DNA of 35,242 nucleotides from NCBI GenBank assembly GCA_034660655.1, contig JAYEJU010000042.1:1-35242 (forward strand). Direction: 5' to 3'. The position numbers and the translations under genes were made by a program. A model generated the notes under the pieces. The model was not told the origin of the DNA, ran no database searches, and saw only the letters and a list, made by a program, of their open reading frames with translations. Positions 21,313 through 28,152 of this stretch are shown piece by piece. The DNA comes from Patescibacteria group bacterium. GTDB taxonomy: Bacteria > Patescibacteriota > Patescibacteriia > JAACEG01. The stretch's first letter is position 1, and every line of letters starts with the position of its first letter.

Positions 21313-21384
21313 AACATTTTAATATTTAAATACTGATTGATTTTAGGCATATTATATTTTTTATAATTCTGTGGATAACTTTTC

Positions 21385-21412
21385 TTGACATCATTTTTAA
21401 ATATGATATTGT
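21385..21412 (+). promoter_or_regulatory. Promoter with consensus -35 and extended -10
   Basis: TTGACA (21385-21390), 16-nt spacer ending in TGA, -10 TATTGT (21407-21412). The layout matches the tuf promoter (same spacer, same TGA). No gene starts downstream; the predicted transcript is the G-poor RNA. Confidence 0.65.
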
Positions 21413-21419
21413 ATAAATA

Positions 21420-21518
21420 ACAAATCAAACAGTTCCACCACCCAAACCAACAAACCCAACCCACATATACCTTTTTCTTTGGCAAATTTTTTATCAAGAG
21501 CATTTCGCTCTTTTTTAT
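21420..21518 (+). ncRNA. Candidate G-poor small RNA
   Basis: A consensus promoter directly upstream and a terminator hairpin at 21496-21518 define a transcript of about 100 nt. It has no credible reading frame. Its body is remarkable: from 21433 to 21480 there is no G on the plus strand, with C-runs such as CCACCACCCAAACC and AACCCAACCCAC. The RNA would be single-stranded except for its terminator. It does not match an RNA family I know. On the minus strand the same stretch is G-rich (GGGTTGGG, GGTTTGGGTGGTGG). Confidence 0.5.
21496..21518 (+). terminator. Intrinsic terminator of the G-poor RNA
   Basis: AAGAGC-ATTTC-GCTCTT followed by a run of Ts (TTTTTTATTTTTT). Compact stem, short loop and strong T-tract make it a textbook terminator. 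Confidence 0.75.
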
Positions 21519-21569
21519 TTTTTAAAAATTTAATCTATCATTATTAGATTATCTTGATACAATTTTATT

Positions 21570-21819
21570 TGTAAGATATGCTAGCGTTGTTTACACTTTT
21601 TGAAAAATTCTTCTTGGTTGTCATTCCGGAAAGTATAATTTCTCGACGAGCTTGCGAGTCGTAAGAAATTAACTTATCCGGAATCTACGCTATATATAAC
21701 CACAAATCAATTAAAGTTATAGATTCCGGATAAATGATTTTCTAAAAGCTCGCGGGCTCGCTTAGAAAATCTATTTTCCAGAATGACAAAAAGTGTAAAC
21801 AACGTTTTTGATTTTTACA
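21570..21819 (+). repeat. 250-bp MITE-like element B, copy 1
   Basis: The terminal inverted repeats share CGTTGTTTACACTTTTTG (left 21585-21602; right as its complement ending near 21803) and begin TGTAA at both outer ends. Inside are two hairpins: one around AATTTCTCGACGAGC and GAGTCGTAAGAAATT, one around GATTTTCTAAAAGC and GCTTAGAAAATC. TCATTCCGG and ATTCCGGAT words link it to the GTCATYC repeats. No protein is encoded. A second copy of the same length lies at 27903-28152 in the same orientation. Confidence 0.8.
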
Positions 21820-22011
21820 TTTTATTGTAATAAGTTTTAAGCAATTGGCTTGATTTTTTTTAAAAATTAAATAATATATTAGCAGTGAGACAACTATATA
21901 TCTCATTAATTTCAAGAAAGGATAATTTTTGTTCTTTGAAAAATATTATTAGTAAAAGGAAGGTAACAAAAAAGCGCTGAAGTTGATTTGCAAGTTTGGA
22001 AAGGAGGCTTG

Positions 22012-22032
22012 ATGAAAATAAAAAAGTGGTGA
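22012..22032 (+). CDS. Possible leader peptide MKIKKW
   Basis: A six-codon frame ATG-AAA-ATA-AAA-AAG-TGG-TGA follows AAAGGAGG (22000-22007) at 4 nt. This is one of the strongest Shine-Dalgarno sequences in the window, where few genes have one. It lies about 190 nt upstream of the pyrE-like start. It could be a regulatory upstream frame; equally the purine-rich sequence may look like a ribosome site by chance. Confidence 0.3.
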   Translation: MKIKKW

Positions 22033-22125
22033 CCGAAGAGAGATAGATCAAGAGGGAAAAAGAATAAAAAAACAAAGAAGAAAGAGAATAAAGAAAAACT
22101 CAGGAAAAAGAAAAGAAAGTGAAAT
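22033..22125 (+). promoter_or_regulatory. Purine-rich leader tract upstream of pyrE-like gene
   Basis: About 90 nt consist almost only of A and G (for example AAGAAGAAAGAGAATAAAG), followed at 22145-22159 by a small hairpin CCTGC-ATTAA-GCAGG without a T-tract. The strand bias is far stronger than in the surroundings. It may be an unstructured mRNA leader. The 1-kb gap 21202-22225 holds no other gene that I can support. Confidence 0.4.
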
Positions 22126-22225
22126 GTAATTCCAAAAAGCCCGTCCTGCATTAAGCAGGCGAGGAATAAAGGGATGTATTGCCAATGATATGAATTTAAT
22201 AAATTCTATACAGGAGGATAAGAAG

Positions 22226-27902: not shown

Positions 27903-28152
27903 TGTAAGATATGATAGCGTTGTTTACACTTTTTGAAAAATTCTTCTTGGTTGTCATTCCGGAAAGTATAATTTCTCGACGAGCTTGCGAGTCGTAAGAA
28001 ATTAACTTATTCGGAATCTACGCTATATATAACCACAAATCAATTGAAGTTATAGATTTCGGATAAATGATTTTTTAAAAGCTCGCAGGCTCGCTTAGAA
28101 AATCTATTTTCCGGAATGACAAAAAGTGTAGACAACGTTCTTGATTTTTACA
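27903..28152 (+). repeat. 250-bp MITE-like element B, copy 2
   Basis: Same length and orientation as the element at 21570-21819 with only scattered base changes (for example GTGTAGACAAC for GTGTAAACAAC near the right end, ATGATAGC for ATGCTAGC at the left). Its right end lies 7 nt before the coding part of the next gene. Confidence 0.8.

Follow-up and report, generated by a model that had tools for sequence, protein, structure and literature searches.

Several described small RNA (sRNA) systems resemble parts of the locus reported here. CJnc190 of Campylobacter jejuni is a trans-acting sRNA that targets the ribosome binding site of ptmG mRNA and has an RNA antagonist, CJnc180, at its own locus (PMC8687705). 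RoxS of Bacillus subtilis has C-rich pairing regions and is controlled by an RNA sponge (PMC8216469). LhrC of Listeria is a multicopy sRNA (PMC4132741), and in type I toxin-antitoxin systems two RNAs pair in blocks across a start codon (reviewed in PMC6563280). The present locus shared a feature with each of these systems: an sRNA able to pair with G-rich RNA and a putative dedicated antagonist RNA at its locus, as in CJnc190/CJnc180; C-rich pairing regions and an RNA partner, as in RoxS; repeated copies of a single sRNA within a genome, as in LhrC; and two RNAs predicted to pair in blocks over an AUG, as in type I pairs. It also differed from them. CJnc180 is antisense and encoded on the opposite strand, whereas here the two RNAs lay in tandem on the same strand, solo sRNA copies were present, and no mRNA target was found in the scanned 55% of the genome. 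RoxS is a structured RNA with Shine-Dalgarno (SD) targets, whereas the C-rich RNA was predicted to be wholly open, lacked CCUCC, and had no homology detected by Rfam. We know of no dedicated structured partner RNA for LhrC. Unlike type I pairs, both RNAs belonged to one transcription unit on the same strand and no toxin peptide was conserved.

The window, the whole 35,242-nt stretch of DNA analysed, probably carries a solo copy of a base-pairing sRNA that is multicopy, acts in trans, and has a dedicated RNA partner, either an antagonist or a target. Its genome (G000) comprised 932 kb in 65 contigs and was estimated to be 98% complete. Upstream of the unit were the genes for S5, L15, and SecY, with no L30 gene between S5 and L15, as expected of a CPR genome; downstream were a pyrE-like gene and the gene for OMP decarboxylase. 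The extended -10 promoter (21385-21412, plus strand) was composed of a -35 element, TTGACA (21385-21390), a 16-nt spacer ending in TGA, and a -10 element, TATTGT (21407-21412), and matched the consensus at 10 of 12 positions. The intrinsic terminator (21496-21522, plus strand), AAGAGC-ATTTC-GCTCTT followed by a T tract, formed a 6-bp hairpin (21496-21512) before TTTTATTTTT. From these two elements a small C-rich RNA was predicted at 21419-21522 on the plus strand, its start being set ~7 nt after the -10 element and its end inside the T tract.

The promoter, the G-free C-rich segment, and the terminator named in the original prediction of an orphan small-RNA unit were thus all confirmed. The G-free segment was exactly 48 nt long (21433-21480, plus strand) and contained 20 C; being free of G, it could hold no start codon. 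Runs of at least 48 nt without G were common in the window, where G made up 19.5% and many G-free runs exceeded 40 nt, but this segment had the highest C count among the long G-free runs of both strands. A consensus scan gave 12 promoter-like sites against 9.3 expected from shuffled sequences and one terminator against 1.0 expected. Therefore, neither element was significant alone, and their significance came from conservation. The predicted absence of structure was borne out by folding, with a minimum free energy (MFE) of -0.4 kcal/mol, less folded than shuffled sequences (z +1.3). On this model the C-rich RNA is open, and the lack of G would keep it single-stranded and its three pairing blocks, described below, free.

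The region between the unit and pyrE contained a 245-bp palindromic MITE-like repeat (21571-21815; MFE -91 kcal/mol), unrelated to the unit, with a second copy in the window at 27904-28148. At least eight full or partial copies, mostly 90-97% identical, were present in 55% of the genome. Between AAAGGAGG-CTTG-ATG and the start of the pyrE-like gene, the purine-rich leader at 22008-22190 contained an ORF of six codons (MKIKKW, stop), followed by an CCTGCATTAAGCAGG hairpin; together, the ORF and hairpin are a possible leader peptide or attenuator.

Conservation in relatives supported the unit. A paralogue, 92% identical, was located at G000:C21:1392-1523 on the minus strand, and relatives were found in a genome of the same genus (G001), in one of the same family with three copies (G003), and in one of the same order but another family (G006). 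The -35/-10 promoter, a G-poor C-rich body, and a U-rich end were common to these homologues. The middle of the body varied in sequence yet mostly stayed G-free. The CUUUUUCUUUUG end was common to the C-rich RNA copies, with a reduced form in G006, and the 3′ motif CCTTTTTCTTTGG (21470-21482, plus strand) was identical or near-identical in G000:C21, G001, the three G003 copies, and G213, a genome of another family. The G213 RNA (L095), alike in promoter type and end, was the one addition from a class-wide search for G-free runs; the other matches, judged mostly from the matched strings, were attributed to chance. Neither the C-rich RNA nor its partner was found in G004 (93% complete). A search of a plasmid collection gave no match. 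Rfam covariance models at both gathering and relaxed thresholds gave none for the unit, the partner, or the G006 and G213 loci, in agreement with the earlier statement that no known RNA family fits.

The promoter was preceded by a putative DnaA box. The sequence TGTGGATAAC (21370-21379, plus strand), an exact DnaA-box 9-mer (the reverse of TTATCCACA) plus C, lay 5 nt upstream of the -35 element. It occurred four times in G000, two of them at C-rich RNA promoters, and seven times in G003, three of them at such promoters. It was kept in all three G003 copies and in G006, and was replaced by TGTTGATAAC in G001. In G000 and G003, the box-TTGACA-TATNNT arrangement was found only at C-rich RNA promoters. 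The arrangement was nevertheless not exclusive to these RNAs and was common in the class, occurring in 112 of 381 class genomes; a backwards control pattern was found in none of the genomes listed. The downstream genes, as read from the loci, included greA-, rpmH-, mraZ-, and histone-like ones as well as small RNAs. The distances from box to -35 element clustered at 3-8, 13-17, and 26 nt, near 5, 15, and 26 nt and hence spaced by roughly one turn of the helix, which suggests helical phasing; the phasing test for distances of at least 9 nt was only modestly significant.

Other predicted RNAs were observed behind promoters of this type. At L029:1897-2060 (G002:C178), a DnaA-box promoter preceded a structured RNA of another kind, ~90 nt long, that had a strong terminator, and the adjoining opposite strand had a C-rich stretch, TTCCACCCTCCCAACC, with AACCAACAAA. 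At L027, ~2686-2735 on the minus strand (G005:C76), a TGTGGATAACTTTTG-TTTACA promoter preceded ACGGTGCGGGATTACCCCTCAATTGGGTCTTACGCACCCGCC, a stretch rich in G and C whose end resembles a hairpin; this is probably another small RNA. At a second locus of G213, L160:1566-1769 (G213:C12:7750 onwards), the DnaA-box promoter was of the type seen at the C-rich RNA of this genome, and a near-identical promoter was duplicated at G213:C12:6142. The RNA predicted there was a long hairpin of 204 nt (MFE -71); its 5′ half was rich in purines, and its 3′ tail was rich in pyrimidines and ended in CTCTCAATCTTTTTCTTTTTGG. In this RNA, AAGATTGAGAG faced CTCTCAATCTT of the C-rich RNA in an 11-bp match, with a binding energy not better than that of shuffles. 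This looks like a rearranged counterpart, and we treat it as a lead only.

The partner RNA was located 3′ of one C-rich copy, on the same strand, in G000:C21, G003:C161, and G006:C48; in G000 it was on another contig than the window (L021, minus strand). Where the window copy has its terminator, the G000:C21 copy runs on into the partner. The partner would be made from the end of this sister transcription unit, in the order promoter, C-rich copy, partner, and terminator. The tandem units of all three genomes each had their own terminator. In G006, the C-rich RNA was ~250 nt upstream of the partner on the same strand, and a repeat-like insert of more than 100 nt separated the two. The neighbours of the tandem units were unrelated, comprising a MazE-like antitoxin (G000), dnaE (G003), and a polysaccharide-deacetylase-like gene (G006); the dnaE and deacetylase-like assignments were made by reading the sequence. 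The partner was single copy in each genome, while the C-rich RNA was multicopy in G000 and G003.

The predicted fold of the partner was a three-way junction, composed of a long stem, P1, and two arms. It folded far better than shuffled sequences, with z values of -4.4, -7.2, and -6.6 in the three genomes. Between G000 and G003, P1 showed five double-sided compensatory changes among 41 pairs, in an alignment that was trimmed by hand, with a few nucleotides of G000 omitted and a loop given two Ns. A covariance model of the G000 and G003 partners, run over 381 class genomes, gave one further true case, in G006 (E 1e-5), and the partner was found in these three genomes only. A match in G087 (E 0.007) was spurious, as it lay inside a phosphoglycerate-kinase-like gene. 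The core pattern ATAAGGTGGAACTTAT, with two mismatches allowed, was exact only in G000 and G003, and its other matches were at background level. In G001 (76% complete), which has a C-rich copy, neither pattern nor covariance model detected a partner.

Each C-rich copy in G000, G003, and G006 matched the partner of the same genome in blocks that were collinear and antiparallel. Block a, AGTTCCACC (21431-21439, plus strand), was predicted to form 9 bp with GGTGGAACT, which covers the loop of arm 2 and its 3′ side. Block b, AAACCAACAAA (21444-21454, plus strand), formed 11 bp with TTTGTTGGTTT and covaried with it. Block c, ACATATACCTT (21463-21473, plus strand), formed 11 bp with AAGGTATATGT in arm 1 and its loop, and covaried at three positions. 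Blocks a and c thus faced the arm loops of the partner. The 5′-most 8 nt, ATAAATAA, also paired with the partner in G000; this match was not counted because it was mostly upstream of the predicted RNA start. The helix lengths of a, b, and c were 9, 11, and 11 bp in G000, 10-13, 9, and 11-14 bp in G003 (AAGTTCCACC, CCCCACAAA, and AACATCTACTTT), and 9, 7, and 13 bp in G006 (CACCACACT, CCCACAA, and AAACACATACTTT). Copy G003:C209 had no block b and formed 13 bp at block a. In G006, the third block was replaced outright and its pairing kept.

In the composite alignment of blocks b and c, 98.2% of cells were paired, with four double-sided and zero one-sided changes; slid versions were 40-61% paired and had no double change. 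This covariation came from three sequences and was modest by itself. All six cognate pairs had z values of -4.4 to -4.9 against dinucleotide-shuffled C-rich RNAs, a comparison that controlled for composition, whereas non-cognate combinations of G000, G003, and G006 gave z values of +1.6 to -3.3 and were mostly no better than shuffles. The covariation supports both the existence of the pairing and its specificity. An exact pattern of block a and its complement retrieved six stretches among GTDB contigs, of which just one, the G003 contig itself (JALULG010000161.1), was shown by its coordinates to be a true case; the others (Planctomycetota, Aminicenantes, and Desulfovibrio) equalled the chance expectation in number. 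None was found in viral contigs. The pair may have arisen through an inverted duplication, but such an origin is insufficient, since the upkeep of complementarity through sequence change needs selection.

The unit combined its own promoter and terminator, the lack of an ORF, and specific complementarity maintained by covariation, which are features of a trans-acting sRNA. The pair is best read as mechanistically similar to sRNA/sponge pairs but as a new family, unmatched in Rfam. An sRNA with a dedicated RNA partner is favoured because the C-rich RNA appears open and has one clear ligand. The sequences show conservation, the partner structure, and covarying complementarity; transcription and action in trans, like the direction of control, RNA processing, and possible additional mRNA targets, are inferred. 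Pairing would probably begin at the contacts of blocks a and c with the exposed arm loops and then zip into the stems. Silencing is likely to be mutual: the partner would soak up the C-rich RNAs or mark them for decay, or the C-rich RNAs would shut off the partner. The first direction, a sponge or antagonist, is favoured by the single-copy partner and the multicopy C-rich RNA in G000 and G003. A tandem partner cannot be transcribed without the C-rich segment, so that, unless the transcript is processed, a sponge would bind its own leader before other copies. The second direction, the partner as target, is favoured by an AUG in the complement of block c in all three partners and by short reading frames.

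These frames raise the alternative of a type I toxin-antitoxin or mini-ORF system, an unlikely reading in which the partner would be a small mRNA and the C-rich RNA would block its ribosome site and start codon. Block c paired with the AUG in three of three partners (AAGGTATATGT, AAAGTAGATGT, and AAAGTATGTGT), an AUG followed by five codons and UAA was present at the 3′ strand of P1 in all three, and extra solo copies of an antitoxin would make sense. The frame from the block-c AUG had 19 codons in G000 and G003, but only 6 in G006. Moreover, the G000 and G003 frames shifted in P1, leaving their C-terminal halves out of register, and no peptide, such as the small hydrophobic one of a toxin, was conserved across the three partners. 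The covariation of P1 accounts for the sequence without coding.

Somewhat less credible is a structure acting only in cis, in which the tandem transcript would fold on itself as a pseudoknot or long duplex and the solo copies would be non-functional duplicates. The C-rich part and the partner are predicted to be co-transcribed in G000 and G003, and covariation cannot separate cis from trans. However, the solo copies kept the promoter, blocks a and c, the lack of G, and their own terminators while their spacers diverged, as seen in the three G003 copies.

The original prediction had proposed pairing with SD sites, including the pyrE-like leader. The suitability for G-rich RNA held, but the SD sites fared poorly and regulation of pyrE found no support: AAAGGAGG and GGAAAGGAGGCTTG reached no more than -5 to -6 kcal/mol, and the pyrE leader as a whole gave -22.5 kcal/mol against -39 kcal/mol for the partner. 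A general anti-SD regulator, comparable to the C-rich regions of RoxS/RsaE, is accordingly improbable. The RNA is C-rich and predicted to be unstructured, and its block c, together with the UUUUUC that follows, could match ribosome sites rich in A, but the RNA has no CCUCC and pairs weakly with GGAGG. Among 482 predicted ribosome-site regions in 513 kb (55% of the genome, with crude gene calls), the best score, -32.3, was within the range of shuffled C-rich RNAs (-26.7 to -32.8), whereas the partner scored -36.6 on a stretch of similar length. Within this scanned part of the genome, the partner was the only site that matched two blocks collinearly and in register. In addition, from one genome to another the block sequences followed changes in the partner and not the SD sequence, which is invariant.

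The template strand had the claimed two-tier G-quadruplex potential and no more (three GGG runs plus GG runs), and G006 had four GGG runs; an element acting at the DNA level is nonetheless very improbable, as the potential was not conserved, G003:C209 having no GGG run on this strand, and the conserved positions were those that pair with the partner. A Rho decoy is the least credible reading, for although Rho is a natural binder of C-rich RNA and the C-rich, G-poor composition fits a rut site, the Rho RNA-binding domain (PF07497) was undetected in G000, G003, and G006 and matched in 9 of 14 control genomes, and the partner would be left unexplained.

A bolder form of the preferred reading, an sRNA with a dedicated RNA partner, can be put forward tentatively, though we doubt that it holds in full. 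The pair would be a self-contained module of RNA-against-RNA recognition, in which an open, G-free (three-letter), multicopy RNA and a single structured lock RNA co-evolve fast, in the manner of an antitoxin with its target. It would involve neither a protein nor a further mRNA target, and the DnaA-box promoter would switch the module and tie it to the replication cycle. In the literature collection searched, we found no study of small RNAs in ultra-small genomes of this kind, which are probably those of Patescibacteria. If the preferred reading is true, these genomes would have a regulatory RNA pair with comparative support for its pairing, and the C-rich RNA would represent a natural use of a G-free alphabet that keeps an RNA open. 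The specificity of the two RNAs, diverging between genera, would furthermore provide ready-made cognate and non-cognate controls.
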